A DNA stretch of 64,000 bases, taken from the NCBI RefSeq assembly GCF_013408795.1, contig NZ_JACCCC010000001.1:4650001-4714000 (forward strand), written 5' to 3'. A program made the translations under genes and the position numbers. The notes beneath the pieces were generated by a model that was not told where the DNA came from, searched no databases, and was given only the letters and a program-made list of their open reading frames with translations. The stretch is from Spinactinospora alkalitolerans (GTDB taxonomy: Bacteria; Actinomycetota; Actinomycetes; Streptosporangiales; Streptosporangiaceae). Positions 7,078-58,675 of this stretch are shown piece after piece. Position 1 is the stretch's first letter. Each line of letters opens with the position of its first letter.

Positions 7078-8247
7078 CTACCGCGCGTCGGCGGCCGGTC
7101 CGCGCACGGCGTCGGCCAGCGCGGCGGGGAGCCCGTCCGCCTTCTCGATCGGGCGGGCGGCCAGCACGTCGGCGATCTGCGCACCGGTCAGGCCGAAGGT
7201 GCTCAGGGCCGCGTCGGCCTGCGCCCGCGGCAGCGCGTTCAGCCAGCGCAGCCACAGCGCGCAGCGGCCGTCGGCGGAGGGGGTGCCCACGGCCCTGAAG
7301 CGTGCCAGGCCCCCGTCGGGGTAGACGTCCAGTCGCAGCCTGGTGGCCGGCCGGGGGGTCTGCACGACGAATCGGTGCCGGGTGTCGGGCAGCAGGTCGG
7401 TGCGCTCGAGGAGGGTGAACCACGCGCCCTCGTCGGCGGGGTCGGAGGCGGTCTCGTCGCATCCGGTCACCCGCGCCGCGCCCGGGGCGTTGAACAGGAA
7501 GTAGCTGGTGTCGAGCTCCAGCATCCGGACCTCGCCGCAGCCGGCCAGCGCGAACTCCACCCAGTCGTTGCCGCCGTCGCGGCGGCGGGCGTTCTCCCAG
7601 CCCTCGCCCATGATGCGGGCGCGCCCGGGCGAGATGAGGTTGGCCGGCGAGGAGTAGAACTCGTTGCTGCACCCGACGACGCGGCCGCCGTTCTCCAGCG
7701 CGGCCAGGTCGAGGCCGCCGGTGACGAGGAGGCGGGGGTCGACGACGGCCTCGCCGTGCACCCTGAAGCGGGCGATGCCGCCGTCGGGGTACATGGTGAG
7801 CCGCACGTGGGTGTAGCGGTGCGGGTCGGTGACGGCGAACGGGTTGGCGGCGTGGCCGCTGACCGGCGACCTCGGCACGATCGTGGTCCACTCGGCTTCG
7901 TTGAGCTGCTCCACCGTCGGGTGGCCCTCGAAGCCGGCCGCCTCCACCGAGACCTCCGGCGGGTAGTTGCCCTTGAACCACGCGGTGTCGACGACCACGC
8001 CGTGGACGACACCGGGCGCGCCCAGCCGGACGACGGCCCAGTCGTGGCCGGGAGTCCTCCGCCTGCGGGTCTCCCACCCGTCGTAGACCTTGCCCTTGTG
8101 CCCGAAGTCCGACTCGTCGAACAGCGGGGCCGTCGGCTTGATGAGGTTCTCGCGCTCGGCGAAGGACTCATCGTTGGCGTAGACGACGGCGCCGCCGAGG
8201 GAGCGGACGGCGAGATCGGGGAAACGGAGGAACTCCTGGTCGGTCAC
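7078..8247 (-). CDS. alc: Allantoicase
   Basis: Hydrolyses allantoate to ureidoglycolate and urea. The 389-residue protein consists of two allantoicase repeats, roughly residues 15-170 and 195-345. Each has the family pattern of a DGWETRRRR or GWENARRRDGGNDW segment, then a Tyr/Phe-rich strand and a YPDGG(I/L)ARFR motif. It is the last gene of the minus-strand unit hyi–glxR–gcl–alc. No recognised ureidoglycolate lyase follows it, so the next step is not accounted for here. Confidence 0.93.
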   Translation of the reverse strand: MTDQEFLRFPDLAVRSLGGAVVYANDESFAERENLIKPTAPLFDESDFGHKGKVYDGWETRRRRTPGHDWAVVRLGAPGVVHGVVVDTAWFKGNYPPEVSVEAAGFEGHPTVEQLNEAEWTTIVPRSPVSGHAANPFAVTDPHRYTHVRLTMYPDGGIARFRVHGEAVVDPRLLVTGGLDLAALENGGRVVGCSNEFYSSPANLISPGRARIMGEGWENARRRDGGNDWVEFALAGCGEVRMLELDTSYFLFNAPGAARVTGCDETASDPADEGAWFTLLERTDLLPDTRHRFVVQTPRPATRLRLDVYPDGGLARFRAVGTPSADGRCALWLRWLNALPRAQADAALSTFGLTGAQIADVLAARPIEKADGLPAALADAVRGPAADAR

Positions 8248-8331
8248 GAACTCTCTCTCCTTGTGGAAGGGAATGACCGGGGCGGCGGCCGCCGCCCCGG
8301 TTCCTGGGCGCGGCCCGGCCGGGGCGACCGG

Positions 8332-10053
8332 CTAGGCCGCGGGCTCGCCGGGGAGCGGCTCGAACTCCTTGACGGCGTCGATGGAGGGGCCGTGCGGCGT
8401 GTTGGCCTCCCGCTCGATCATGATCTCGACCAGCACCGGCCGCGAGGTCGCCTGGGCCTGCTTGCGCGCCCACTCCAGCGTCTCGCGGATCTGCGCCGGG
8501 TCGAGGACGCGGCGGCCGGAGCAGCCGTAGGCCTCCATGATCTTGACGTTGTCCGAGCCGAACTCGTCGTAGTGGATGTCGACCTCGAAGTTCATGTCGA
8601 ACGGGATCTCCGCTTGACGGATGAGGCCGAGGTACTCGTTGTTCAGCATGATGAGGACGTAGGGAACGTTGTACTGCGCCGCGACGGCCAGTTCCTCCAC
8701 CATGTACTGGAAACTGTAGTCGCCGACGATACCGACGACCTCGGCGTCGGGCTCGGTGGCCTTCAGCGCCTTCTTGACGCCGATCGCGGCCGGGATCTCC
8801 CAGCCGAGCGGGCCGGCCTGGCCGCAGATCTGGTAGTGCCGCGGCAGGGAGGCCTTCTGGTGCTGGCCGCCCCAGATCTGGTACAGGCCGATCGCGGTCA
8901 CGAAGTAGGTGTCGGCGTCGAAGACCTCGTTGATCTCCTTGTACACCCGCGGGGCCTTGATCGGGGCCGAGTCGAAGTCCTCGCGCCGGGTCAGCGTGGC
9001 GCGCAGCTCCTGGATCCGGGAGACCCACGTGCCCGCTTCCCGCCCGGCGCCGCGCCGCTTGGCCGCGTCGAGCAGCGCCCGCAGGAAGCGCCTGGTGTCG
9101 GAGACGATGCCGAGGTCGGGCTGGAAGACCTTGCCGATCTGGGTGGGCTCGATGTCGACGTGGATGAACTTGCGCTCACCGCGGTAGACGTCGAGGGTGC
9201 CGGTGTGCCGGTCGCCGAAGCGGGCGCCCAGCGCCAGCACCAGGTCCGACTCCAGGAACGAGGCGTTGCCGTAGCGCTGCGAGGTCTGGATGCCGGCCAT
9301 GCCGGAGTACAGGGCGTGGTCCTCGTCGATGGAGCCCTTGCCCATGAGCGTGACCTGCACCGGGATCTGCAGGTACTCGGCCAGCTCGACGAGCTCCTCG
9401 TGCGCCCCGCCGGTGATCACGCCGCCGCCGGACAGCAGTAGCGGGCGCTCGGCCGCCAGCAGCATGTCCAGGGCGCGCTCGACGCGCGGCAGGTGCGGCT
9501 CGACTGCGGGGACGGGCAGCGGCGCGTCGATGCCGGAGTCCCACTCGATGATCTCCTTCTGCACGTCCAGCGGCAGGTCGATCAGGACCGGGCCGGGACG
9601 GCCGGAGCGGGCGATGCGGAACGCCTCGCGGAAGATCCACGGGGCCTGCGCGGCCTCCTTGACCTGCACCGCCCACTTGGTGACCGGCTTGGCGATATCC
9701 ACGATGTCGACGGCCTGGAACGCCTCCTGGTGCAGCTTGGTGCTGACCGCCTGGCCGGTGATGCAGATGATCGGGATCGAGTCGGCGATCGCGGTGTAGA
9801 GGCCGGTGATCATGTTGGTGCCGGCCGGGCCTGAGGTGCCGACCGCGACGCCGACGTTGCCCGTGGTCCGGGCCCAGCCGTCGGCCATGTGGGTGGCGCC
9901 CTCTTCGTGCCGGACGATGAGGTGTTCGATGCCGCTGCCCTGCAGGGCGGCGTAGAACGGCAGGATGGCGGCCCCGGGGCAGCCGAAGATCGTGTCGACG
10001 CCTTCGGAGCGCAGCACGTCGACGACGGCGCGCATGGCGGGTATCTGTACCAT
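8332..10053 (-). CDS. gcl: Glyoxylate carboligase (tartronate-semialdehyde synthase), with Glu at the unusual active-site position
   Basis: A ThDP-dependent enzyme that joins two glyoxylates into tartronate semialdehyde plus CO2. The 573-residue protein has the Pyr domain (GCPGAAILPFY, GTSGPAGTNMITG), a central FAD-type domain, and the ThDP/Mg motif GDYSFQYMVEELAVAAQ ending in NN, then LGLIRQAE as in Gcl. In E. coli Gcl the canonical catalytic Glu is replaced by Val51 (HVEG). Here the motif is HEEG, with Glu50 at that place, so an acetolactate-synthase-like activity cannot be excluded. Flanking hyi and glxR strongly favour Gcl. ATG at 10053 is chosen; the upstream in-frame ATG adds 22 Pro-rich residues. 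Confidence 0.88.
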   Translation of the reverse strand: MVQIPAMRAVVDVLRSEGVDTIFGCPGAAILPFYAALQGSGIEHLIVRHEEGATHMADGWARTTGNVGVAVGTSGPAGTNMITGLYTAIADSIPIICITGQAVSTKLHQEAFQAVDIVDIAKPVTKWAVQVKEAAQAPWIFREAFRIARSGRPGPVLIDLPLDVQKEIIEWDSGIDAPLPVPAVEPHLPRVERALDMLLAAERPLLLSGGGVITGGAHEELVELAEYLQIPVQVTLMGKGSIDEDHALYSGMAGIQTSQRYGNASFLESDLVLALGARFGDRHTGTLDVYRGERKFIHVDIEPTQIGKVFQPDLGIVSDTRRFLRALLDAAKRRGAGREAGTWVSRIQELRATLTRREDFDSAPIKAPRVYKEINEVFDADTYFVTAIGLYQIWGGQHQKASLPRHYQICGQAGPLGWEIPAAIGVKKALKATEPDAEVVGIVGDYSFQYMVEELAVAAQYNVPYVLIMLNNEYLGLIRQAEIPFDMNFEVDIHYDEFGSDNVKIMEAYGCSGRRVLDPAQIRETLEWARKQAQATSRPVLVEIMIEREANTPHGPSIDAVKEFEPLPGEPAA

Positions 10054-10194
10054 TTGGGGAAACCCTTCAGTGCTAGGGGGTTGGGGGACCGCCGGCGGGC
10101 TCTTGGGTGCGGCCAACACCCAGGCGATCCGGCCCTGACGCTAAGCGCGAGCGCCGGACGCCGTGCCCGCTGGCGGAAACCCGTTGCTTCGCCG

Positions 10195-11085
10195 CTACCG
10201 CTCCCCGGCGGAGAGCTGCTCCACGATCTTGAGCAGTGCGGAGTGGTCGAGTCCGCCGTGGCCCTGGGCCTTGAGCGCGCCCACGAACTGCGCCACGAGC
10301 GCGCCCAGCGGGATCGCGACGCCGGCCTCGCGGGCCGCGGTCGTCACGATCTTCATGTCCTTGTCGTGCAGGGCGATCCGGAAGCCCGGCTCGAACCGCC
10401 GGTGGCGCATCGCCTCGCCCTTGCGGGTCATGACGGTGCTGCCGGCCAGTCCGCCGTTGAGGACCTCCAGCCCGGCCTCGGTGTCGACGCCGTGCGCCTC
10501 AAGGAAGACCAGCGCCTCGGCGACGAGCTGGATGTTGCCCGCCACGATGAGCTGGTTGGCCGCCTTCACCGTCTGGCCGGCGCCCGAGGGGCCGACGTGC
10601 ACCGGGGTCGTGCCGAGCACGTCGAAGACCGGCCTGGCGGTCGCGAAGTCGGCCGTGTCGCCGCCGACCATGATGGACAGCTTCGCCTCGACGGCACCGG
10701 CCTCGCCGCCGCTGACCGGGGCGTCGAGGACCCGGAAGCCGCGCTTCGCGCCCTCTTCGGAGACCGTGCGGGCGACGTCGGGGCGGATGGTGCTCATGTC
10801 GATGACGAGGGCCCCGGACGCCGCGTTGGCGAACACGCCGTCCTCGCCGAGGAGAACGGCCTCGACGTCCGGGGAGTCGGGGACCATCGTGATGACGGCG
10901 TCGGCGCCGCCGACCGCCTCGGCGATGGAGCCCGCGGCCTTGCCGCCCTCGGCGGCCAGCCGCTGGGTCCTTTCGGCTTCGAGGGTGTAGCCGGTGACCT
11001 CGAAGCCGGCCTTGACGAGGTTGATCGCCATGGGCAGGCCCATGATGCCGAGGCCGACGAAGGCGATGCTGCGCACCTGGGTCAT
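10195..11085 (-). CDS. glxR: Tartronate semialdehyde reductase (2-hydroxy-3-oxopropionate reductase)
   Basis: Reduces tartronate semialdehyde to D-glycerate with NAD(P)H. The 296-residue beta-hydroxyacid dehydrogenase has an N-terminal Rossmann motif GLGIMGLPMA, the substrate loop APVSGGEAGA near residue 120, and the catalytic Lys in the segment VKAANQL near residue 170. It lies between hyi and gcl on one strand and so completes the glyoxylate-to-glycerate route. Confidence 0.93.
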   Translation of the reverse strand: MTQVRSIAFVGLGIMGLPMAINLVKAGFEVTGYTLEAERTQRLAAEGGKAAGSIAEAVGGADAVITMVPDSPDVEAVLLGEDGVFANAASGALVIDMSTIRPDVARTVSEEGAKRGFRVLDAPVSGGEAGAVEAKLSIMVGGDTADFATARPVFDVLGTTPVHVGPSGAGQTVKAANQLIVAGNIQLVAEALVFLEAHGVDTEAGLEVLNGGLAGSTVMTRKGEAMRHRRFEPGFRIALHDKDMKIVTTAAREAGVAIPLGALVAQFVGALKAQGHGGLDHSALLKIVEQLSAGER

Positions 11086-11123
11086 TGAACGTCCTTTCCT
11101 GGTTGCTGTTGCGGCGGTCGGGC

Positions 11124-11924
11124 TCAGCGCCCGATCCAGCCGAAGCTCTCGGTGGTGGGCACGGTCGGCTTGTACTCCAGGCCCACGTAGCCCGCGTATC
11201 CCTTGGACTGGGCCGCGGCCAGGAGCTCGGGCAGCGGCAGCCCGCCGGTTCCGGGCTCGCCGCGGCCGGGGGCGTCGGCGATCTGGATGTGGCCGAACTC
11301 CGCGGCGTGCCGCTCGACCACCGCGGCGACGTCGTCGCCGTTGACCGCCAGGTGGAAGAAGTCGGCGAGCAGCGCGACGTTGTCGGCGCCGTTGCGCCTG
11401 GCCGCGGCCACGATCTCCAGGCCCTCGGCCGCGGTCGTGAGCGGGTAGCCGGACGCGCCGCTGACCGGTTCGATCAGGACGGTGCCGCCGATGGCGTCGA
11501 CCGCCTTCGCTGCCGCGGTGATGCTCTCCAGCGCCACCCGGTCGGATTCGGCCGGGTCGACGCCCTCCTCGCGCAGGCCGTAGAGGGCGTTGAAGCCCTT
11601 GGTCCCCAGGCGGCGGCCGATCTCGACGACGACGTCGATGTTGTCGCGGAACTCTCCCGCCCGCGACGGCGAGGACAGCACGCCGCGGTCACCGGCCGGC
11701 ATGTCGCCGGCGAAGAAGTTCAGGCCGCTGAGCTCGACCCCGGCGTCGGTGACGGCCCGGACGAAGGCGTCGACATCGGCGTCGTCGGGGACCGGGCGGG
11801 TGAACGGCCACCAGAACTCGACGGCGTCGAATCCGGCGGCGCGCGCCGCGGCCGGGCGTTCGAGCAGGGGCAGCTCGGTGAAGAGCAGCGAGCAGTTCAC
11901 CGTGTAGCGCAGTGAGTGGCCCAT
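11124..11924 (-). CDS. hyi: Hydroxypyruvate isomerase
   Basis: Interconverts hydroxypyruvate and tartronate semialdehyde. The 266-residue protein is an AP-endonuclease-2-type TIM barrel with conserved metal ligands in VLIEPVS, LLADFFHLAV, HIQIADAPGR(G)EPGTG and VGLEYKP. The start at 11924 is fixed by AAGGAGG seven bases upstream; the open frame beyond it runs into the promoter region. It is the first gene of the hyi–glxR–gcl–alc unit, whose promoter region carries two TTC-N8-GAA sites. Confidence 0.92.
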   Translation of the reverse strand: MGHSLRYTVNCSLLFTELPLLERPAAARAAGFDAVEFWWPFTRPVPDDADVDAFVRAVTDAGVELSGLNFFAGDMPAGDRGVLSSPSRAGEFRDNIDVVVEIGRRLGTKGFNALYGLREEGVDPAESDRVALESITAAAKAVDAIGGTVLIEPVSGASGYPLTTAAEGLEIVAAARRNGADNVALLADFFHLAVNGDDVAAVVERHAAEFGHIQIADAPGRGEPGTGGLPLPELLAAAQSKGYAGYVGLEYKPTVPTTESFGWIGR

Positions 11925-11982
11925 GGACCCGCCTCCTTCCTCCCCGTCGCGTCGGGCGATCGCACCCCCGACACGGGAAGAT

Positions 11983-12017
11983 TTCTCAATGTGGAATCTA
12001 CTTTTCACTTGAAGGAA
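11983..12017. promoter_or_regulatory. Two candidate IclR/AllR operators upstream of hyi
   Basis: TTCTCAATGTGGAA (11983-11996) and TTCACTTGAAGGAA (12004-12017) both fit TTC-N8-GAA and are offset by 21 bases, two helical turns. They lie 59-93 bases upstream of the hyi start in an unusually A/T-rich patch. Confidence 0.5.
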
Positions 12018-12233: not shown

Positions 12234-12264
12234 TTGACAGGCAACCGAGCCGCCGGTCTACAGT
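12234..12264 (+). promoter_or_regulatory. Promoter of the uric-acid operon
   Basis: TTGACA at 12234-12239 is followed after 19 bases by TACAGT at 12259-12264, a good sigma70/HrdB-type match. Predicted initiation near 12271 is just upstream of the operator at 12284. Confidence 0.6.
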
Positions 12265-12283
12265 CCGTAATACAAAACCAAGT

Positions 12284-12298
12284 TTCTGCACTACGAAA
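12284..12298. promoter_or_regulatory. Candidate AllR operator upstream of OHCU decarboxylase
   Basis: TTCTGCACTACGAAA is an imperfect palindrome and matches 13 of 15 bases of the site read on the minus strand at 19581-19595. It begins 20 bases downstream of the -10 box, where a bound repressor would block elongation. Confidence 0.65.
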
Positions 12299-12440: not shown

Positions 12441-12977
12441 ATGTCCGACAGCACCCGCGCCGGAGCGGTCACCGATTCCGGGCTCGCGCGGATCAACGCG
12501 CTGGACGCCGAAGCGTTCCGCACCGAGTTCACCCAGTGCCTCGACATCGACCGCTGGGTGAACGCCCTGGAGAGCGGGCGCCCCTTCGGCACCCGGCGGG
12601 AACTGCTCGACGCCGCCGACGCCCGCGCCCGCGAGATCACCGACGCGGAGGTGGCCGAAGCCCTGGCGCGCCACCCGCGGATCGGCGAGCGCGCGCGGGG
12701 CAGGGGCACCGAGGCCGCCTGGTCGCGCGGCGAGCAGGCCGGGATGGACAGCGCGCAGGACGAGGTCCAGGAGGCCATGCGCGCCGGCAACGCCGAGTAC
12801 GAGCGCCGCTTCGGACAGATCTACCTGGTGTGCGCGAGCGGCCGCTCCAGCGAGGAGCTGCTGGCCGACCTCAGGGGCCGGCTGGACAACGACCCGGGCA
12901 CCGAGGCCCGGATCGTCGCCGAGGAACTCCGCAAGATCGCGCTGCTGCGCGTTGGAAAGGTGCTCGACGCGTCATGA
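12441..12977 (+). CDS. uraD: 2-oxo-4-hydroxy-4-carboxy-5-ureidoimidazoline (OHCU) decarboxylase
   Basis: Catalyses the last step from urate to (S)-allantoin. The 178-residue, mainly helical protein has the family's LARHPRIGE motif with the catalytic His, followed by SRGEQAGM and the YLVCASGRSSEELL segment. ATG at 12441 is preceded by GGAG about six bases away; earlier in-frame starts lie in the promoter region. The stop overlaps the next start (ATGA), indicating coupled translation with HIU hydrolase. Confidence 0.93.
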   Translation: MSDSTRAGAVTDSGLARINALDAEAFRTEFTQCLDIDRWVNALESGRPFGTRRELLDAADARAREITDAEVAEALARHPRIGERARGRGTEAAWSRGEQAGMDSAQDEVQEAMRAGNAEYERRFGQIYLVCASGRSSEELLADLRGRLDNDPGTEARIVAEELRKIALLRVGKVLDAS

Positions 12978-13324
12978 CGACACCCAGCCACGTGACGACG
13001 CACGTCCTGGACGCCGCCCTCGGGCGGCCGGCCGCAGGGGTCCCCGTGGTCCTGGAGGCCGCCGGCGCCGAAAAGGCCTCGTGGAGGCCGGTGGCGAGCG
13101 GTACCACCAACGACGACGGGCGCGTCCCCGACCTCGGCCCCGAACGGCTGTCCGCCGGGGTCTACCGCGTCACCTTCGACACGGCGGACTACTTCGAACG
13201 CACCGGCCAGCGGGGCTTCTACCCCGAGGTCACCGTGGTCTTCGAGATCGCGGACGAGGACGCGCACTACCACGTGCCGCTGCTGCTCAGCCCGTTCGCC
13301 TTCTCCACCTACCGGGGCAGCTAG
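12974..13324 (+). CDS. uraH: 5-hydroxyisourate hydrolase
   Basis: A transthyretin-like enzyme that opens 5-hydroxyisourate, the uricase product, to OHCU. The 116-residue protein is full length, with the active-site His in THVLDAALGRPA, Arg in NDDGRV, and the diagnostic C-terminal YRGS tetrapeptide. It sits between OHCU decarboxylase (4-base overlap) and uricase, the usual set for three-step urate oxidation. Confidence 0.95.
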   Translation: MTTPSHVTTHVLDAALGRPAAGVPVVLEAAGAEKASWRPVASGTTNDDGRVPDLGPERLSAGVYRVTFDTADYFERTGQRGFYPEVTVVFEIADEDAHYHVPLLLSPFAFSTYRGS

Positions 13325-13477: not shown

Positions 13478-14371
13478 ATGGCGATCCGTCTCGGAGACAA
13501 CCAGTACGGCAAGGCCGAGGTGCGCCTGGTCCGCATCAACCGCGACAGCGACGTCCACACCATCAAGGACGTGAACGTCACCTCCCAGCTGCGCGGCGAC
13601 TTCGAAGCGGTGCACACCGAGGGCGACAACGGCAACTGCGTGGCGACCGACACCCAGAAGAACACCGTCTACGCGTTCGCCAGGAGGTACGGCGTCGGCG
13701 CGATCGAGGACTTCGCGCTGCGCCTGGCCCGGTACCACGTCGACACCTTCGACCAGGTACACGGCGCCCGCCAGGAGATCGAGGAGTACTCCTGGAACCG
13801 GATCGACACCGCCGCGGGCCCGCACGACCACTCCTTCGTCCGCCGGGGCGGGGAGACCCGCACCACCGTCGTCACCAAGGACGGCGACCGGGAGTGGGTC
13901 GTCTCCGGCTTCGAGGGCCTGACCGTCCTGAAGTCGACCGGCTCGGAGTTCCACGGCTACCCCAAGACCGAGTACACCACGCTGAAGGAGACCACGGACC
14001 GGATCCTGGCCACCGACGTCAAGGCCCGCTGGCGCTACATCGGCACCGACCTCGACTGGGACAAGACCTACGCCTCCATCACCTCGATCATGCTGGAGGC
14101 CTTCGCCGAGACCCACAGCCTCGCGCTGCAGCAGACGCTGTACCGGATGGGCGAGGCCGTACTGGAGGCCCACCCCGAGGTGGCCGAGGTCAGGTTCTCG
14201 ATGCCGAACAACCACCACTTCCTGGTGGACCTCTCCCCGTTCGACCTGGACAACCCCAACGAGGTCTTCTTCGCGGCCGACCGGCCCTACGGCAAGATCG
14301 AGGCGACCGTCCTGCGCGACGACGCCCCCGAGCCCGGCCGGGCCTGGGAGACCGTTCCGGGCTTCATCTGA
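13478..14371 (+). CDS. uox: Uricase (urate oxidase)
   Basis: Cofactor-free oxidation of urate to 5-hydroxyisourate with H2O2 release. The 297-residue protein has both T-fold halves. The catalytic Lys is in YGKAEVRLVRI, the Thr-Asp pair in ATDTQKNTVYAFA, the family block IEEYSWNRI follows, and the conserved His is in PNNHHFLVDLSPFDL. ATG is preceded by AAGGAG about 11 bases upstream. No peroxisome-type tail is present, as expected for bacteria. A 153 bp gap separates it from uraH; no separate promoter was clear. Confidence 0.95.
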   Translation: MAIRLGDNQYGKAEVRLVRINRDSDVHTIKDVNVTSQLRGDFEAVHTEGDNGNCVATDTQKNTVYAFARRYGVGAIEDFALRLARYHVDTFDQVHGARQEIEEYSWNRIDTAAGPHDHSFVRRGGETRTTVVTKDGDREWVVSGFEGLTVLKSTGSEFHGYPKTEYTTLKETTDRILATDVKARWRYIGTDLDWDKTYASITSIMLEAFAETHSLALQQTLYRMGEAVLEAHPEVAEVRFSMPNNHHFLVDLSPFDLDNPNEVFFAADRPYGKIEATVLRDDAPEPGRAWETVPGFI

Positions 14372-14656: not shown

Positions 14657-16216
14657 ATGACCTCAAGGGGCTGGAAACTGGCCATGAGATTCCGCAAGAG
14701 CGCGAACAGTGCCTCGGCCACAACAGACGCCACCGACAACGCTGCGAGCCGTCCGGAGGACGAGAAGCTCCCCCCGAAACTGCTGCTGCTCTACGGGCTG
14801 CAGCACATCCTCACCATGTACGCCGGCGCCGTCGCCCCCGCCCTGGTCATCGGCGCCGCCGCCGGACTGGACGGGGGCGACCTCGGCGTCCTGGTCAGCG
14901 GCGCCCTGCTGGTCGCCGGCATCGCGACCCTGCTGCAGACGATCGGCGTCCTGCGCGTCGGCGCGCAGATGCCCATCGTCGTGGGATCGTCGTTCGTCCC
15001 GGTCAGCGCCATGACCGCCATCGCGACCGACCAGGGAATGCCGGTGGTGTTCGGCGCCTCCCTCGTCGGCGGGGTCTTCGCCTTCCTGCTGACCCCGTTC
15101 TTCGGTCAGCTCATCCGCTTCTTCCCGCCGGTGGTGACGGGCAGCCTGATCACCGTCATCGGCCTGTCGCTGATGCCGGTCGCCGCCGGATGGGTGATCA
15201 ACGGCGCCGAGGGCGGCGTACCGGCCCTGGGCGACCTCGGGCTGGCCGGCGCCACCCTCGCCTTGGTGCTGCTCTTCTCCCGGGTGCTGCCCGGCCTGCT
15301 CAGCCGCATCTCGATCCTGCTGGGTCTGATCGCCGGCACCCTGCTGGCCATCCCGTTCGGCAAGGCCGACTTCAGCCAGATCGGCGCGGGCGCGGTGTTC
15401 TCGGTCGGCTCCCCGCTGCACTTCGGCGGCTTCCAATTCGAGACCGCGGCGATCCTGACGATGTGCGTGGTCATGCTGGTGGTCCTCACCGAGGGCGCCT
15501 CGCACATCATCGCCGTCGGCGAGATCATCGGCACCAAGGTCGACAGCAAGCGCATCGCCGCCGGACTGCGCGCCGACGTGAGCGCCTCCATCGTCGGCCC
15601 GATCTTCAACAGCACGCCGGGGAGCTCGTTCGCGCAGAACATCGGCCTGATCGCGCTGACCAGGGTCAAGAGCCGCTACGTCGTGGCCACGGGCGCGGGG
15701 ATGCTCATCGTCCTGGGCCTCTTCCCCGTCCTGGGCCGACTCGTCGCCGCGATCCCGATGCCGGTGCTCGGCGGCGCGGGCCTGGTGCTCTTCGGCACCG
15801 TCGCGGCCAGCGGCATCCGCACCCTGGGCAAGGTCGACTTCGACGACAACCTCAACCTGATCATCGTCGCCACGTCGCTGGGCTTCGGGATCATCCCGCT
15901 GGCCGTGCCGGCCTTCTACGACGGCTTCCCCGACTGGCTCGCGCTGATCCTGCACTCCGGCATCGTCGGCGCCGCGATCGTCGCGATCGTGCTCAACATC
16001 TGCTTCAACATCATCGGCGGCGGGCGCTACGAGGAGGGGCCGTCGGTCTTCGCCGCGGCGCCCACCCTGGACCGCGACTACCCCGAATCCGCGGCCGAAC
16101 CCGGCTCCGCCCCCCGGGAGGAGGAGTCCCCGCAGGTGCCCGTCCAGGCACCCTCCGGGGAGGACGCGCCGGCCGGCGCCGAGAGCGACGACCGCCTCGC
16201 ACCCCGGCACGACTGA
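14657..16216 (+). CDS. NCS2-family urate/xanthine permease
   Basis: A 519-residue membrane protein with 12-14 hydrophobic segments and the NCS2 core. It has the QHILTMYAGAVAPALV stretch in the first helix, the E-containing TEGASHIIAVGEIIG segment, and the signature SFAQNIGLIALTRVKSRYV (Q-N-x-G). Close to UacT/PucJ-type urate and xanthine transporters; exact substrate is inferred from the adjacent uricase. The charged Pro/Glu-rich C-terminal tail is cytoplasmic. The start is uncertain: ATG at 14657 or 14684, neither with a strong RBS. The 285 bp gap before it holds a CCGTCAGC/GCTGACGG hairpin at 14542-14565. Confidence 0.9.
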   Translation: MTSRGWKLAMRFRKSANSASATTDATDNAASRPEDEKLPPKLLLLYGLQHILTMYAGAVAPALVIGAAAGLDGGDLGVLVSGALLVAGIATLLQTIGVLRVGAQMPIVVGSSFVPVSAMTAIATDQGMPVVFGASLVGGVFAFLLTPFFGQLIRFFPPVVTGSLITVIGLSLMPVAAGWVINGAEGGVPALGDLGLAGATLALVLLFSRVLPGLLSRISILLGLIAGTLLAIPFGKADFSQIGAGAVFSVGSPLHFGGFQFETAAILTMCVVMLVVLTEGASHIIAVGEIIGTKVDSKRIAAGLRADVSASIVGPIFNSTPGSSFAQNIGLIALTRVKSRYVVATGAGMLIVLGLFPVLGRLVAAIPMPVLGGAGLVLFGTVAASGIRTLGKVDFDDNLNLIIVATSLGFGIIPLAVPAFYDGFPDWLALILHSGIVGAAIVAIVLNICFNIIGGGRYEEGPSVFAAAPTLDRDYPESAAEPGSAPREEESPQVPVQAPSGEDAPAGAESDDRLAPRHD

Positions 16217-16521: not shown

Positions 16522-17877
16522 TCAGGAGGAGCGGCGCAGCAGGCGGCCCCCGGGGTGGGCGGGGTCGACCGGCTCGCCGCGCAGCCAGGTCCGGCGGACG
16601 GCGCCCTTGAGCTCGAGGCCGTCGTAGGCGCTCACCCGGTTCCTGTGCTGCAGCGCCGCGACGTCGACGCGGACGGTCTCCTCCGGAGCCACGACCGCGA
16701 AGTCGGCGTCGTTGCCGGCGACCAGGCCGCCCTTGCCCGCGACGCCGGCGATCTCGGCCGGGCGGCGCGACATCCAGCGCACCATGTCGGCCAGGGTGAA
16801 GCCCCGGGCCGCGGCCTCGGTCCAGACGGCGGAGAACCCCACCTGCAGCCCGGACACCCCGCCCCACGCGGTCCCGAAGTCACCGGTGTCGAGGGTCTTG
16901 AGGTCCGGCGTGCTGGGCGAGTGGTCGCTGACCACGCAGTCGATGAGCCCGTCGGCCAGCGCCTGCCACAGGGCGGCGCGGTTGGCCTCGCCGCGGATCG
17001 GCGGGCAGCACTTGAACTGCGTGGCGCCCGCCGGGACCTGCTCCGCGACGATCGTCAGGTAGTGCGGGCAGGTCTCCACCGTGAGCGGGACCCCGTCGGC
17101 CTTGGCCTCGGCGATCAGGGGCAGCGCCGTGGCGCTGGACAGGTGCAGGATGTGCGACCGGGTCCCGGTGCGCCGCGCCGTCTCGATCACCAGGGCGATC
17201 GCCGCGTGCTCCGCTTCGTCCGGACGCGAGGCGAGGAACGACGCGTACTCGCGGCCCCGGGCCGCCGGCGCGCCGTCGAGCACGCCGGGGTCCTCGGCGT
17301 GCACGATGATCAGCCCGCCGAAGGCGCCGATGGCCGCGGCGGCGGTGCCGAACTCATCGGGCGCCAGGTGGCCGAACTCCTCGACGCCCGAGGGCGAGAG
17401 GAACGCCTTGAAGCCCTGGACGCCCTCGTCGTGCAGCGCCTTGAGCTCCCCGGTCGTGCCGGGGCGGCTGTTCTCGGGTACGGCGCCGCCCCAGAAGCCG
17501 ACGTCGACGGCGACCTGGTCGCGCGCGGCGTCGCGCTTGGCCGCCAGCCCCTTGACCGTCGTGGTGGGCGGCACGCTGTTCAGCGGCATGTCCACGATGG
17601 TGGTCACGCCGCCGGCCGCGGCCGCGCGGGTGGCGCTGGCGAACCCCTCCCATTCGGTGCGGCCGGGCTCGTTGACGTGCACGTGGCTGTCCACCAGGCC
17701 CGGCAGCAGCACCTCGTCGTCGCTGAGCTCCACGGTGCGCGCCGCGTCGAGGCGCGCACCGTGGTCGGCGATCTCGGCGATGCGCCCCTCGCGCACCGCC
17801 ACGCTGACGCCGCGCTCCCCCTCGGGCGTGATGGCGCGCCGGGCGCGCAGCACAAGATCGAAAACCTGCTCCGTCAT
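16522..17877 (-). CDS. allB: Allantoinase
   Basis: A zinc amidohydrolase that opens allantoin to allantoate. The 451-residue protein has the metal motif [17 protein letters not shown], the carboxylated-Lys block [10 protein letters not shown], His ligands in IIVHAEDP and HILHLSSA, and the Asp of VSDHSPS. The first HVNEPGR block and [10 protein letters not shown] are characteristic of allantoinases rather than dihydropyrimidinases. ATG at 17877 is preceded by GAGAGAG. It lies downstream of the CitE-like aldolase with a 179 bp gap, probably in one unit. Confidence 0.94.
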
Positions 17878-18056: not shown

Positions 18057-19355
18057 CTATCCGACTCTGCGGTTGGCGAAGCCCTCCAGGACCGCCCACT
18101 CCACGCCCGTGGCCTCGGCGACCTCGGCGTCGTCGAGCGCGCCGCAGTGGCGGCCGCGCACCAGCGCCGAGGCCAGCGCCTGGGCGGTCGCGGGCTCGTC
18201 CATGACCGCGCCGCCCGCCGCGGCGAGGTAGGCCTTCAGCCGCGCGGCCGCGGGGGCGAACGCCTCGCGGTAGAAGGCGTAGGTGGCCAGGTAGCGGGTC
18301 GGCAACTGGTGCGGGTGCAGGTCCCAACCCTGGTAGTAGGCGCGCTCCAGGGAGCGGCGCACGAGCCGGGCGTGCAGTCCCCACGCCTCGTGCACCTGCT
18401 CGGCCGAGCCGACCGGCAGCACGTTGGTGGAGCCGTCGGACAGCCACACCCCGGTTCCGGCCGCGGCCAGTTGCATGACGGCCTTGGCGTGGTCGGCCAC
18501 CGGGTGCGCCATGCTCTGGAAGGCCGCGGTGACCCCGCAGGCCGCGCTGTAGTCGTAGGTCCCGTAGTGCAGGGCGGTGACCCGGCCCGCACCCGCGCGC
18601 ATCATCTGCGCGACCGCGGCGGTGCCGTCAGGGGCCATGACCGACTGCGGCGTCTCGATCTGGAGCTCGAACTCCAGCGCGCCGTCGGCCAGGCCCAGCC
18701 GCCGCTCCAACTGCTCGGTGACCCAGACCATCGCCTCGACCTGCTGCACGGAGGTGATCTTGGGCAGCGTGAGGACGAGGCCCTCCGGGACGGCGCCGGC
18801 CCGCTCCAGGAGGATTTCGAGGAACATGGTGAGGCTGCGCAGGCCGCGGCGCCGACCGGCTGCCTCCATGCCCTTCATCCGGATGCCGAAGTAGGGCGGC
18901 GCGACGCCGTCGGCGAGGTCGGCGCACAGTGCCTCGGTCGCCGAGACGAGATCCGCGTCCTCCTGCGCGTCGGACCGCCCGCTGTAGCCGTCCTCCAGGT
19001 CGATGCGCAGGTCCTCGACGGGTTCGCGGCGCAGCTTGTCCAGCACCCGCGGGAGGCACTCGGCCACCGCGGCCTCCTCCAGCCCGGTGGCGGCGGCCAG
19101 CGTCGCCGCGTCTCCGGCGAACTCCTTCACCGACCGGACCGCCCGCTCGCCCCACTCCCCGGCGATGCCCCGGTGGACCTGGTCGGCGGGGACGTAGACG
19201 GTGTGGACCGGCTGGCGCAGCCCCCGGTCGCCGGGGTACTGCCGAAGCAACCGGGCGTCCGCATCGGCGAGCCGCGCGTCCAGGGCGTCGGCCAACTCCG
19301 TCAGGCCGCTTCCGGCCACGCCGGTCCCGGCGTCCGAGGATTCCTGCACACCCAC
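18057..19355 (-). CDS. CitE/HpcH-type aldolase-like protein (DUF6986-like) in the allantoin locus
   Basis: A 432-residue TIM-barrel protein of the HpcH/HpaI–CitE superfamily. Visible family motifs are DLEDGYSGR (near residue 125), [15 protein letters not shown] with the metal-binding Glu, and [13 protein letters not shown] with the second metal Asp. It is longer than typical CitE because of a helical N-terminal region and a C-terminal extension. The GTG start at 19355 has AAAGGG six bases upstream. Co-directional with allantoinase and divergent from the IclR regulator, it probably acts in glyoxylate or ureidoglycolate metabolism. The reaction is not known to me; the DUF6986 assignment is from memory of actinobacterial annotations. 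Confidence 0.75.
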
Positions 19356-19428
19356 TGGCAACCCTTTCCGTTCCGATCCGGTTCGAGGCGGAGATCGCGG
19401 GATCACCGAAAAACTCGACCAGAAAACT

Positions 19429-19463
19429 TTTATATAGCGGACACTAACTTCTACAATCCGGAA
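19429..19463 (-). promoter_or_regulatory. Promoter of the aldolase–allantoinase unit with overlapping operator-like site
   Basis: Read on the minus strand, TTGTAG (19456-19451) and TATAAA (19434-19429) are separated by 16 bases. The plus-strand sequence TTCTACAATCCGGAA (19449-19463), a one-base-longer relative of the TTC-N8-GAA site, overlaps the -35 box. Confidence 0.55.
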
Positions 19464-19580: not shown

Positions 19581-19595
19581 TTTCGTATCGCAGAA
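19581..19595. promoter_or_regulatory. Candidate AllR operator upstream of the IclR gene
   Basis: TTTCGTATCGCAGAA, on the minus strand TTCTGCGATACGAAA, differs from the site at 12284-12298 only at its two central bases. It lies about 56 bases before the regulator start, consistent with autoregulation. Confidence 0.65.
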
Positions 19596-19650: not shown

Positions 19651-20487
19651 GTGATGGGAGTTGGACCTTTGGCAACGTCACAGACAGCGGTCGGAAGCAC
19701 CGGCGCTGACGACATCGCCGCGGAACCGGAGAACCGAGGACGGCCCGGCGGCGTGCAGTCCCTCGACCGGGCGTTCGCCCTGCTCGAGATCATGGCCGAC
19801 GCCGGAGGGGAGATCTCGCTGAGCCAGCTCGCGAGCTCCTCCGGCCTGCCCCTGCCCACCATCCACCGGATCATCCGCACACTGCTGGGCAACGGCTACG
19901 TCCGCCAGCTCCCCTCCCGCCGCTACGCCCTGGGCCCCCGGCTGATCGGGCTGGGCGAGAGCGCGTCGCGGATGCTCGGCACGTGGGCGCGCCCGCACCT
20001 GGCCCAGCTCGTGGACGACCTCGGCGAGACCGCGAACCTCGCCATGCTCGACGGCGACAAGGTGGTCTACGTCGCCCAGGTCCCCTCACCGCACGCCATG
20101 CGGATGTTCACCGAGGTCGGCCGGCGGGTGCTGCCGCACTCCGCCGGCGTGGGCAAGGCGCTGCTGGCCCAGCTGCCCGAGAACGAGGCCCTGGCGACCG
20201 TGCGCCGCACCGGCATGCCGGCCGCCACCGACCGCACGCTCACCACCCCGGACTCCTTCGCCGCGGAACTGGCGCGCATCCGCGAGCAGGGCTACGCCAT
20301 CGACGACGGCGAGCAGGAGATCGGCGTGCGCTGCCTGGCCGTTCCGGTGCTCGGCGGCCCCGCCATGATGGCGGTGTCCATCTCGGGCCCCGAGTCGCGG
20401 ATGAGCTGGGAGTTCGTGGAACAGGCCGCACCGATCGTGCAGCGCACGGCGGTCAGTCTGGCCGGCGACCTCAACCACCAGAACTAG
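19651..20487 (+). CDS. allR: IclR-family transcriptional regulator (AllR-type)
   Basis: A 278-residue IclR protein. The N-terminal winged helix-turn-helix (about residues 35-95) includes VQSLDRAFALLEIM and LPLPTIHRIIRTLLGNGYV. The C-terminal effector domain has RRVLPHSAGVGKALLAQLPE, YAIDDGEQEIGVRCLAVPV and a terminal helix. IclR-type AllR proteins repress allantoin genes and are known to respond to intermediates such as allantoate, glyoxylate or ureidoglycolate. Divergent placement from the aldolase–allantoinase unit supports that role. The start is ambiguous: GTG 19651, ATG 19654 or a later TTG. Confidence 0.85.
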   Translation: MMGVGPLATSQTAVGSTGADDIAAEPENRGRPGGVQSLDRAFALLEIMADAGGEISLSQLASSSGLPLPTIHRIIRTLLGNGYVRQLPSRRYALGPRLIGLGESASRMLGTWARPHLAQLVDDLGETANLAMLDGDKVVYVAQVPSPHAMRMFTEVGRRVLPHSAGVGKALLAQLPENEALATVRRTGMPAATDRTLTTPDSFAAELARIREQGYAIDDGEQEIGVRCLAVPVLGGPAMMAVSISGPESRMSWEFVEQAAPIVQRTAVSLAGDLNHQN

Positions 20488-55414: not shown

Positions 55415-55439
55415 CATATTCCACATAACAAAAGCTTTT

Positions 55440-55453
55440 TTCGCTATGCGGAA
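55440..55453. promoter_or_regulatory. Candidate AllR operator in the aceB leader
   Basis: TTCGCTATGCGGAA fits TTC-N8-GAA and, on the minus strand, matches 10 of 14 bases of the site at 12284-12297. It overlaps the GGAAGG ribosome-binding site (55450-55455), so bound protein would block the start of the message. Confidence 0.55.
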
Positions 55454-55464
55454 GGTATGGATTC

Positions 55465-57069
55465 ATGGGCGCCACCACCGGGGTCGAGGTCATCGGCCCG
55501 CGACACGAGCGGTACGACGAGATCCTGACCGACGACGCTCTCGCGTTCGTCGCCGGCCTGCACCGCGCCTTCGAGAGCCGGCGCCGGGAGCTGCTCGCCG
55601 CGCGCAAGCGCCGCCAGGAGGAGATCTCCGCAGGAGCCGACCTGGACTTCCTGCCGGAGACCAGGAACGTCCGGGAGGATCCGAGCTGGCGGGTCGCCCC
55701 GCCCGCTCCCGGCATCGTCGATCGCCGCGTGGAGATCACCGGCCCCACCGACCGCAAGATGACGATCAACGCCCTCAACTCCGGCGCGAAGGTGTGGCTG
55801 GCCGACTTCGAGGACGCCAACACCCCGCTGTGGGAGAACATGATCGGCGGCCAGCTCAACCTGCGCGACGCGCTGGACCGCGCGGTCGACTTCAGCACCC
55901 CCGAGGGCAAGAGCTACGCGCTCAAGGACGACTCCGAGCTCGCCACCATCGTCGTGCGCCCCCGCGGCTGGCACCTCGACGAGAAGCACATCCTGGTCGA
56001 CGGCGAGCGGACCTCCGGCGGCATCGTCGACTTCGCGCTGTACTTCTTCCACTGCGCGCGGCGCCAGCTCGCCAAGGGCAAGGGCCCCTACTTCTACCTG
56101 CCCAAGATGCAGAGCCACCTCGAGGCCCGGCTGTGGAACGACATCTTCGTGCACGCCCAGGAGGCGCTCGGCATCGAGCGCGGCACCATCCGCGCCACGG
56201 TCCTGATCGAGACCATCCCGGCCGCGTTCGAGATGGAGGAGATCCTCTACGAACTGCGCGAGCACTCCGCCGGCCTGAACGCCGGGCGCTGGGACTACCT
56301 GTTCAGCATCATCAAGACGCACCGCACCCGCGGCCGCGACTTCCTGCTGCCCGAGCGCAACGCGGTCACCATGACCGCACCCTTCATGCGGGCCTACACC
56401 GAACTGCTGGTCAGCACCTGCCACCGGCGCGGCGCGCACGCGATCGGCGGCATGGCCGCGTTCATCCCCAGCCGCCGCGACCCCGAGGTCAACAAGACCG
56501 CGCTGGCCAAGGTCCGCGACGACAAGGCGCGCGAGTCCGGTGACGGCTTCGACGGCTCCTGGGTCGCCCACCCCGACCTCGTCCCGGTCGCCCGCGAGAT
56601 CTTCGACGGCGTCCTGGGCGAGCGGCCCAACCAGATCGACCGGCTCCGCGACGACGTCGCCGTCAAGGCCGAGGAGCTGCTCGCGGTCAGCGACGCCGAG
56701 GGCGGCATCACCGAGGGCGGCCTGCGCAGCAACGTCAACGTCGGCCTGCAGTACCTGGCCGCGTGGCTGGGCGGCAACGGCGCGGTCGCGATCCACAACC
56801 TGATGGAGGACGCCGCCACCGCGGAGATCTCCCGTTCCCAGATCTGGCAGTGGCTGCACAACGACGTCACCCTCGACGACGGCCCGAAGGTCACCCCGGA
56901 GCTGGTCGAACGCGTCATCGACGACGAGCTCGCCTCGATCCGCGAGACCGCGGGACAGGCGTTCGACGCCGCGCTCTTCGAGCGGGCCACGGAGCTGTTC
57001 AAGGAGGTCGCGCTGGCCGACGAGTACGCCGACTTCCTGACGCTGCCGGCCTATGAGCGGATGCCCTGA
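55465..57069 (+). CDS. aceB: Malate synthase A
   Basis: Condenses glyoxylate with acetyl-CoA to malate. The 534-residue, single-chain type A enzyme has a TIM barrel with [57 protein letters not shown], and [12 protein letters not shown]; the catalytic Asp lies in the C-terminal plug ([14 protein letters not shown]). In S. coelicolor a malate synthase gene is tied to allantoin metabolism. The operator-like site upstream suggests the same here. It heads a plus-strand series with glcDEF. Confidence 0.96.
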
Positions 57070-57118
57070 CCCGAGACCGGGCTCCGCGGCCGCCGCATCG
57101 CGCGCGGTGCGGCCGTTA

Positions 57119-57138
57119 TCCCGCCCTCCCGGGCGGGA
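57119..57138 (+). terminator. Hairpin between aceB and glcD
   Basis: TCCCGCCC (57119-57126) pairs with GGGCGGGA (57131-57138), 4-base loop, no T-run. It may attenuate or end the aceB transcript, but glcD follows on the same strand. Confidence 0.5.
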
Positions 57139-57205
57139 AGGACGGTCTCACCGCGCCTTTTCCACAGGCACGGCCAGGCCACACGATTGGGGAGGGCGAG
57201 CCCCC

Positions 57206-58675
57206 ATGTCCGCACCGGTCGACCTCGGCGCGCTGGTTCCGCACCTGCGCGCCGTCTGCGGTGACGACGGCGTCATCACCGACGCCGCCCGTCGCCGCAC
57301 CTACGAGAGCGACGGCATCACCTACCACGCGGCCGTGCCCGGTGTCGTGGTGCTGCCCACCACCGCCGAGCAGGTGGCCGCCGTCGTGCGGCTGTGCGCG
57401 GAGCGGGGCGTGCCGTTCGTGCCGCGCGGTTCGGGCACCGGCCTGTCCGCGGGTGCGCTGCCGCGGCCCGACGGCGTCCTGATCGTCACCTCCCGCATGC
57501 GCCGCATCCTGGAGGTCGACATCGACGCCCAGCGCGCCGTGGTCGAACCGGGCGTGTTCAACCTGGACGTCACCAGGGCCGCGGCCCCGCACGGCTACTA
57601 CTACGCCCCCGACCCCTCCAGCCAGCAGGTCTGCTCCGTGGGCGGCAACATCGCGGAGAACTCCGGCGGGGCGCACTGCCTGAAGTACGGCTTCACCGTC
57701 AACCACGTCCTCGGCCTGGAGGTCGTCACGCCGCAGGGGGAGATCGTCGAGCTGGGCGGCAAGGCCGCCGACGCGCCCGGCTACGACCTGATCGGCGCGT
57801 TCATCGGCTCCGAGGGGACCCTGGGCATCGCCACCAAGATCACCGTGCGGCTGCTGCGCGCCCCGGAGAAGGTGAGCACGATGCTCGCGGCGTTCGACTC
57901 CATGGACGCCGGGGGGCAGGCGGTCTCGGCGATCATCGGCGCCGGGATGCTGCCGGCGGCGATCGAGATGATGGACGCGCTGGCGATCGAGGCCGCGGAG
58001 GCGGCGGTGCGCTGCGACTACCCGGAGGGCGCCGGGGCCGTGCTGATCGTGGAGCTCGACGGATCGGCCCACGACGTCGACGCCCAGTTCGACGCGGTGA
58101 CGGCGCTGTGCAGGCGGGCCGGGGCCTTCGAGATCCGCACGGCCAGCGACGCGGCCGAGCGCGCGCGCATCTGGAAGGGCCGCAAGTCGGCGTTCGCCGC
58201 GGTGGGCCGGATCAGCCCCGCCTACATCGTGCAGGACGGGGTGGTGCCCCGCACGGCGCTGCCGGAGGTGCTCGCGCGGATCGCCGAACTGTCGGCCCGG
58301 TCCGGCATCCGGGTGGCCAACGTGTTCCACGCCGGCGACGGCAACCTGCACCCGCTGGTGCTGTTCGACGACGCCGATCCGGGCGCCGCCGAGCGCGCCG
58401 CCGAGGTCTCCGGGGCGATCCTGGACCTGTGCGTCGAGGCGGGCGGCTCCATCACCGGCGAGCACGGCGTGGGCGTGGACAAGGCCTGCCACATGCCGGA
58501 GATGTTCACGCCGGCCGACCTGGAGACGATGGACCGCTTCCGCCGCGCGTTCGACCCCGACGGCATCGCCAACCCCGAGAAGCTGCTGCCCACGCCGCGC
58601 CTGTGCGGGGAGCGGCCGGGCGTCCGCACGCAGGAGCACCCGCTGGTCGCCTCGGGCGAGGCCGAGCTGTTCTGA
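57206..58675 (+). CDS. glcD: Glycolate oxidase subunit GlcD
   Basis: The FAD subunit that oxidises glycolate (or lactate) to glyoxylate. The 489-residue protein has the PCMH-type FAD domain (VPFVPRGSGTGLSAGA, SVGGNIAENSGGAHCLKYG, GSEGTLGIATKITVRLL) and a C-terminal cap domain with NVFHAGDGNLHPLVLF and GSITGEHGVGVDK. ATG at 57206 sits ten bases after GGAGGG. It starts the glcDEF unit. Confidence 0.95.
   Translation: MSAPVDLGALVPHLRAVCGDDGVITDAARRRTYESDGITYHAAVPGVVVLPTTAEQVAAVVRLCAERGVPFVPRGSGTGLSAGALPRPDGVLIVTSRMRRILEVDIDAQRAVVEPGVFNLDVTRAAAPHGYYYAPDPSSQQVCSVGGNIAENSGGAHCLKYGFTVNHVLGLEVVTPQGEIVELGGKAADAPGYDLIGAFIGSEGTLGIATKITVRLLRAPEKVSTMLAAFDSMDAGGQAVSAIIGAGMLPAAIEMMDALAIEAAEAAVRCDYPEGAGAVLIVELDGSAHDVDAQFDAVTALCRRAGAFEIRTASDAAERARIWKGRKSAFAAVGRISPAYIVQDGVVPRTALPEVLARIAELSARSGIRVANVFHAGDGNLHPLVLFDDADPGAAERAAEVSGAILDLCVEAGGSITGEHGVGVDKACHMPEMFTPADLETMDRFRRAFDPDGIANPEKLLPTPRLCGERPGVRTQEHPLVASGEAELF

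Follow-up and report, generated by a model that had tools for sequence, protein, structure and literature searches.

The DUF6986 gene and its purine gene neighbourhood

We analysed a 64,000-nucleotide stretch of DNA from Spinactinospora alkalitolerans (the window), in which a gene of the DUF6986 family lies among genes for purine breakdown (Table 1). As the first-pass annotation had described, the gene is co-directional with allantoinase, lying 179 bp upstream of allB on the same strand, and is divergent from an IclR regulator gene on the opposite strand. The genes of the window can be assigned to the steps from urate to allantoate and ureidoglycolate, and to those from glyoxylate to glycerate or malate. 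From urate onwards, the only step without an assigned window gene is the conversion of ureidoglycolate to glyoxylate, and DUF6986 is the sole protein of unknown function among the named purine genes of the window. The alc, gcl, glxR and hyi genes (7078–11924), which had not been mentioned in the earlier description of the gene, lie in the same window. At 482–2211 on the minus strand, two adjacent GDSL-lipase-family ORFs resemble a tandem duplication.

Table 1. Features of the window and, in the last line, of a second genome
Feature	Position	Strand	Basis and remarks
DUF6986 (PF22484) protein, proposed (S)-ureidoglycolate lyase	18057–19355	-	family match, context, fold; 432 aa
allB allantoinase, downstream of the DUF6986 gene	16522–17877	-	TIGR03178, 545 bits; start read from sequence
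IclR-family regulator (AllR-like), divergent	19651–20487	+	IclR_C and HTH_IclR
alc allantoicase, product ureidoglycolate and urea	7078–8247	-	PF03561, 300 bits
gcl glyoxylate carboligase (ORF to 10119)	8332–10056	-	NF008431, 897 bits
glxR tartronate semialdehyde reductase	10195–11085	-	TIGR01505, 369 bits
hyi hydroxypyruvate isomerase (ORF to 12008)	11124–11924	-	TIGR03234, 254 bits, under the 353-bit cut-off
OHCU decarboxylase (uraD)	12441–12977	+	PF09349, 152 bits
HIU hydrolase (transthyretin-like)	12974–13324	+	PF00576, 129 bits
Uricase	13478–14371	+	TIGR03383, 358 bits
Xanthine/purine permease	14657–16216	+	TIGR03173, 463 bits
aceB malate synthase A, predicted same regulon	55465–57069	+	TIGR01344, 804 bits
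GlcD-type FAD-linked oxidase, ORF overlaps aceB end	57053–58675	+	NF008408, 557 bits, below its cut-off
Operator-like site, DUF6986 promoter	19449–19463		20.8 bits; pattern-choice alignment included the window
Operator-like site, IclR side of the divergent region	19581–19595		22.2 bits; pattern-choice alignment included the window
Two operator-like sites 5′ of the OHCU decarboxylase operon	12263–12298		17.9 and 18.6 bits
Two operator-like sites 5′ of malate synthase	55419–55453		20.7 and 21.2 bits
Weaker operator-like site 5′ of hyi-glxR-gcl-alc	11982–11996		15.2 bits, within the random range (maximum 16.2)
DUF6986 fragment of genome G153	C1:235264–235554 (in L135)		in-frame stop in match

The reading frame present in the window encodes a product of 432 amino acids. 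The same frame can be extended to a GTG at 19406; a GGAAAGG just 5′ of the GTG at 19355 favours the shorter start. The product is a full-length member of PF22484 (DUF6986), matching over residues 29–430 with 625.6 bits against a cut-off of 27 (E 4.4e-188). Its score for HpcH_HpaI (PF03328) is 21.5 bits, under the cut-off of 25, and three divergent DUF6986 relatives likewise stay under this cut-off at 23.4–24.9 bits. Among NCBIfam models, the haloarchaeal malyl-CoA lyase gave a weak match (24.8 bits, cut-off 500), and the malate synthase models TIGR01344 and TIGR01345 were absent from the matches at E up to 0.01. Searches of PDB sequences with the single DUF6986 sequence and with a 34-sequence profile returned no match. 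PF04115, the AllA family, matched neither the window protein (E up to 0.01) nor any protein of its own genome (E up to 0.001); AllA-family membership was rejected on this result together with the predicted fold, a TIM barrel and not a cupin. Three of five relatives from a plasmid collection are annotated as "aldolase/citrate lyase family protein", and the other two records are unannotated there.

Alignment of the IclR/DUF6986 intergenic region from Nocardiopsidaceae relatives revealed two conserved 15-bp blocks resembling inverted repeats. A 15-bp weight matrix was built from 33 sites of 17 other loci, and the random maximum in 30 simulated windows was 16.2 bits. Six sites in the window score at least 17.9 bits (19581, 19449, 55439, 55419, 12284 and 12263); because the window's IclR/DUF6986 region was part of the alignment used to choose the motif pattern, the scores of the two sites there are not independent, whereas those of the other four are. 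The operator-like site that had been reported at the DUF6986 promoter is thus a copy of a conserved motif, scoring above the random best with a pattern whose alignment included the window. Two strong copies stand before the genes for malate synthase A and a GlcD-type oxidase (55419–58675), ~35 kb from the IclR gene, and the regulon therefore seems to reach this region. The predicted regulon would include malate synthase and, through the weaker site and its position, the Gcl route. With the two standard sinks for glyoxylate in the predicted regulon, the case for DUF6986 as a glyoxylate-condensing enzyme is weakened. From position and conservation, we infer that the IclR regulator acts at the motif sites. 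The characterised sites of E. coli AllR and IclR are likewise A/T-rich palindromes, according to the available portion of PMC8222616.

Predicted fold and conserved residues

To model the protein, we used AlphaFold2 on a 34-sequence alignment, and the best model reached a pLDDT of 89.6 and a pTM of 0.87 (the five models ranged from 89.6 to 74.6). The four best Foldseek matches of this model are malyl-CoA lyases. By VIA-align, the model superimposes on 6kin_F with a Z of 26.8 (302 residues, rmsd 3.2 Å), on 4l9y_A with a Z of 26.6 (291 residues, 2.7 Å), on human CLYBL with a Z of 25.9 and on malate synthase A (3CV2) with a Z of 23.6, and the alignment reaches the C-terminal lid. No cupin is found among the 50 VIA rows listed. 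The predicted model has the TIM barrel with C-terminal lid that is a feature of the CitE-like/malyl-CoA-lyase superfamily. Thus, the label "CitE/HpcH-like" given in the first-pass annotation holds at the superfamily level, where it agrees with the structure matches, and fails at the family level, where the protein belongs to a Pfam family of its own and stays below the HpcH_HpaI cut-off.

A profile alignment by hhalign to the five CitE paralogues of the same genome (prob 97.6) pairs the conserved residues of the paralogues with D119/E121/D122, R159, E234, D268 and D386 of DUF6986 (432-aa numbering). The residue set of the superfamily is therefore complete in DUF6986, comprising the metal-binding Glu and Asp, the D-x-E-D motif, the catalytic Arg and the lid Asp. 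No substitution occurs at any of the seven positions in 132 of 132 aligned rows, which represent 126 distinct sequences with identities as low as 35%; this includes E234 and D268, the metal-binding pair whose retention had been pointed out before. The 132 rows include the window and five added plasmid-collection sequences; of 134 loci with a match, 8 were excluded, two as copies of the window's own gene and six as partial or split matches. In malyl-CoA lyase, the catalytic set is Asp42/Glu44/Asp45, Arg76, Glu141, Asp168 and the lid residue Asp299, as given in the accessible part of PMC3832036, and its correspondence with the DUF6986 residues was drawn by motif rather than by direct alignment with that protein.

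Conservation does not extend to the K-A end of a loop segment that occurs in all five CitE paralogues of the genome; in DUF6986, "KA" is found within this stretch in 5 of 132 rows. We take this end of the loop to have a CoA-binding role in the paralogues. Its loss in DUF6986 would be compatible with a loss of CoA binding.

Distribution and gene context of the family

In order to follow the family across its class, we searched 168 genomes for six families and later for two malate synthase models. Because CitE paralogues exceed the 27-bit Pfam cut-off, which 112 of the 168 genomes pass, DUF6986 was scored as present at E below 1e-90, a threshold set after viewing the list (weakest kept 3.0e-98, next 2.2e-25). 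The next match is a fragment in genome G153, which was scored as lacking DUF6986. For AllE and AllB, only matches above the curated cut-offs entered the counts, which leaves out weak matches in 25 and 99 genomes, respectively. By these measures DUF6986 occurs in 56 genomes, Alc in 50 and AllE in 9, and Alc and AllE are never found together in any of the 168.

Among the 59 genomes with Alc or AllE (hereafter producers, of ureidoglycolate), 55 carry DUF6986, versus 1 of the 109 with neither (Fisher 2.8e-38, a guide only, since the 168 genomes are related and P overstates their independence). At the genus level the figures are 27 of 29 producer genera and 0 of 56 others, and all nine AllE genomes have DUF6986. 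The sole DUF6986 genome without a producer enzyme is G152, a fragmented draft (850 contigs, 93% complete). G152 is also the only genome with DUF6986 among the 11 that have AllB over cut-off and neither Alc nor AllE, and mere linkage to allantoinase was rejected on this count. The family thus follows ureidoglycolate formation and not allantoinase. Ten genomes (G026, G030, G045, G063, G078, G104, G138, G146, G148 and G156) have allantoinase over cut-off and lack allantoicase, AllE (over cut-off) and DUF6986; allantoate must take another route in these.

Nine genera include both producers and non-producers; in seven, the genomes with DUF6986 are precisely the producers. The two exceptions are g10, with three producers that lack DUF6986, and g68, where the draft G152 has DUF6986 and no producer enzyme. 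Genome G153 has no alc and belongs to a genus with DUF6986 in 11 of 11 producers; it holds only the short fragment listed in Table 1, and the fragment together with the missing allantoicase looks like correlated loss.

Co-occurrence with ureidoglycolate lyase families had been put forward as a check in the first-pass annotation, and the comparison favours DUF6986, since AllA (PF04115) matches only 3 of the 168 genomes. Of these, G115 is a clear match, and the weak matches G100 and G129 both also have DUF6986. The clear AllA gene of G115 (L133, C1:799345–799764) has xanthine-dehydrogenase-like genes next to it, and this genome holds no Alc, no AllE over cut-off and no DUF6986. Four of the 50 allantoicase genomes (G003, G049, G159 and G017) match neither DUF6986 nor AllA, and another route thus exists in these four. 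Inspection of their allantoicase neighbours yielded no obvious substitute for DUF6986. In the three g10 genomes G003, G049 and G159 (L128, L129 and L131), where not every neighbouring gene was scanned in each genome, allantoicase is accompanied by a PuuE-type allantoinase, an Asp/Glu/hydantoin racemase-family gene and a purine/allantoin-type permease, with no DUF6986.

Named neighbours were compared in the best 80 of 525 DUF6986 loci, a set biased to close relatives. The named proteins in these 80 loci are uricase (55), AllB (50), AllE (38), malic enzyme (27), Gcl (25), AceB (17) and Alc (13). Within 400 bp or less, the nearest downstream named neighbour is AllE in 23, AllB in 20, uricase in 16 and Hyi in 1, and the nearest upstream is malic enzyme in 19, AceB in 17 and IclR in 17. 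Loci contain Gcl only, AceB only or both, and either Alc or AllE (L084 alone has both). DUF6986 is the constant element while the enzymes before and after it change.

In 30 of these best 80 loci neither Alc nor AllE is found in the flanks; 17 of the 29 genomes searched have Alc elsewhere (L107 was left out). When the flanks were extended for four of the 12 remaining loci, an AllB-AllE pair was found just beyond in L087, L072 and L090, and in L088 neither AllB nor AllE was seen as such, the only trace being a 26% AllB-like match. Five loci, L075, L080, L101 and L107 (Streptomyces/Kitasatospora) and L104, showed no named protein near DUF6986 in flanks of which some are short. Malic enzyme stands upstream of DUF6986 or of an AceB-DUF6986 pair in L070, L071, L088, L108, L112, L116 and others, and that of L108, the only one scanned, has a sub-threshold ACT-domain match.

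Additionally, five divergent members come from plasmid-collection records. In Tsukamurella, DUF6986 and AllE overlap by 4 bp, and in Nocardia farcinica the matches to DUF6986, Alc and PuuE are 53 and 17 bases apart. The neighbours of the Paenarthrobacter member are a PuuE-like deacetylase, 46% to a PuuE, and an NCS1 permease; around the Nonomuraea member, none of the other named proteins was matched within 5 kb. In Gordonia, DUF6986 is located 143 bp upstream of the urease genes gamma-beta-alpha-F-G-D, which fits a urea-releasing enzyme as a single case; UreC gave no match in the available DNA of the 80 named loci (best 80 of 525), and urease near DUF6986 was seen only in Gordonia.

Because of the pathway hole, the genome distribution, the gene context, the conserved regulatory site, the predicted fold and the residue conservation, we propose with good confidence that DUF6986 is an enzyme of the CitE/malyl-CoA-lyase fold that breaks (S)-ureidoglycolate down into urea and glyoxylate (EC 4.3.2.3). 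Two reactions had been suggested in the first-pass annotation. Cleavage of ureidoglycolate is the one that the distribution among producers and the gene context support well, while aldol use of glyoxylate sits poorly with the 45 of 100 malate-synthase genomes (A or G) that are without DUF6986.

It is unlikely that DUF6986 consumes glyoxylate, by condensation with an acyl-CoA or a 2-oxoacid in the manner of a malate synthase or an aldolase. Such a role would suit the fold and residues, which are those of glyoxylate-binding lyases, and the upstream AceB and malic enzyme genes noted above in the best 80 of 525 loci, as malic enzyme would use the product. However, malate synthase A or G is over cut-off in 55 of the 56 DUF6986 genomes (the exception is G093), and each of the 20 genomes whose locus holds malic enzyme without AceB encodes an AceB at another place. 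The family also co-occurs with Gcl, the K-A loop end is not conserved, and the ureidoglycolate step would stay empty. Replacement of malate synthase by DUF6986 was rejected, as 55 of the 56 genomes already hold the A or G form.

We also regard it as quite improbable that ureidoglycolate opens spontaneously or through another enzyme (an M20 amidohydrolase or AllD-type dehydrogenase), with DUF6986 in an accessory role such as clearing a toxic glyoxylate or hydroxypyruvate by-product. The window's own genome does encode two M20 amidohydrolases, one of which exceeds the cut-off of the NCBIfam "allantoate amidohydrolase" model, and three Ldh_2 dehydrogenases that could in principle act on ureidoglycolate, and the four allantoicase genomes named above manage without both DUF6986 and AllA. 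Yet no M20 or Ldh_2 gene lies within the window, no more than 17 of the 59 producers carry an Ldh_2 above its cut-off (M20 was counted in the own genome only), and an accessory role would not lead one to expect DUF6986 close to Alc as well as AllE, or next to urease in Gordonia. In genome G000, which already has allantoicase, an M20 hydrolase (L158, C1:1947319–1948476) scores 635 bits against a cut-off of 372 for the NCBIfam model "allantoate amidohydrolase".

Action on ureidoglycolate with no release of urea, as an ammonia-releasing amidohydrolase or by glyoxylyl transfer to another acceptor, is highly improbable: the context pins the substrate better than the products and urease is adjacent in one case only, but the predicted fold is a lyase/aldolase scaffold and the Gordonia member beside a urease operon fits urea as product.

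Proposed reaction and comparison with known enzymes

As a ureidoglycolate lyase, DUF6986 would act between allantoicase (or AllE) and glyoxylate use by Gcl or malate synthase. Ureidoglycolate is an aza-analogue of a malyl compound, with NH for CH2 next to the carbonyl, and a malyl-CoA-lyase scaffold could therefore accept it. By CIP analysis, (S)-ureidoglycolate corresponds in space to an (R)-malyl compound, whereas L-malyl-CoA has the opposite configuration. The way it binds must thus be unlike that seen in malyl-CoA lyase. In the mechanism we envisage, Mg2+ bound to E234 and D268, and to waters on E121 and D122, would chelate the carboxylate and hydroxyl of ureidoglycolate, and R159, oriented by D119, would aid ionisation of the hydroxyl and stabilise the alkoxide. 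The C-N bond would then break in a retro-aldol-like elimination, with the ureide nitrogen in the role of the acetyl-CoA enolate carbon, and D386 on the C-terminal lid, from the neighbouring subunit by analogy, could protonate the leaving urea. For malyl-CoA lyase, the accessible part of PMC3832036 proposes deprotonation of the hydroxyl near Mg2+/Arg, breakage of the C-C bond and proton transfer from the lid Asp to the enolate. The same machinery could expel urea in place of the enolate, and DUF6986 would be CoA-free and Mg2+-dependent. The substrate, reaction, metal, mechanism and stereochemistry are those that we infer for the family.

On balance, it appears likely that DUF6986 is a malyl-CoA-lyase scaffold turned C-N lyase, with the CoA site lost, and that the family, which has no relation to AllA, makes purine catabolism complete in many actinomycetes. 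If so, a function would be given to a Pfam family of unknown function found in 56 of 168 sampled genomes of the class, and actinobacterial purine-nitrogen recycling, in which AllA is a rarity (3 of 168), would no longer have a gap at ureidoglycolate. A late purine-breakdown step of many soil actinobacteria would be carried out by a fold not known for ureidoglycolate cleavage, and a C-C lyase superfamily would have evolved C-N cleavage through the replacement of the enolate carbon with a ureide nitrogen.

The term "DUF6986" had no match in the open-licence literature searched (CC0/CC BY/CC BY-SA), a search that may miss subscription journals. Among the matches listed from this literature, in titles and the starts of abstracts, no aldolase-type protein is assigned to ureidoglycolate. 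Another actinobacterial allantoate route, via a carbamoyltransferase, is described in PMC4016543, whose available portion does not mention aldolases.

In the part of PMC3793230 that was available, EC 4.3.2.3 is the nickel-dependent cupin AllA/DAL3, EC 3.5.3.19 is UAH, and a Burkholderia "UGL" is disputed. AllA/DAL3 (PF04115) has the same reaction and pathway position as proposed for DUF6986; in contrast to this cupin, DUF6986 is a predicted TIM barrel with a lid and has no PF04115 match. DUF6986 is thus at most an analogue of AllA and not homologous to it. UAH and AllD, the other known ureidoglycolate-using enzymes in that portion of PMC3793230, belong to families different from DUF6986, and their relatives in the own genome (M20 and Ldh_2) lie outside the window.

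Malate synthase A (TIGR01344) has the same fold family and glyoxylate chemistry as DUF6986, but its model gives no match to DUF6986 at E up to 0.01 and a true AceB is separately encoded in the window. The closest likeness is to the malyl-CoA lyase/CitE-like enzymes (PDB 4L9Y, 4L80 and 6KIN; CLYBL 5VXC), with which DUF6986 shares the fold including the C-terminal lid (Z 25.9–26.8) and all seven catalytic positions. It differs from these structures in sequence, with about 14–19% identity and a Pfam family of its own, and relative to the CitE paralogue profile it carries ~42 extra residues between residues 44 and 123. Lastly, malyl-CoA lyase breaks a C-C bond, whereas DUF6986, in which the K-A loop end is not conserved, would cleave a C-N bond and do so without CoA.
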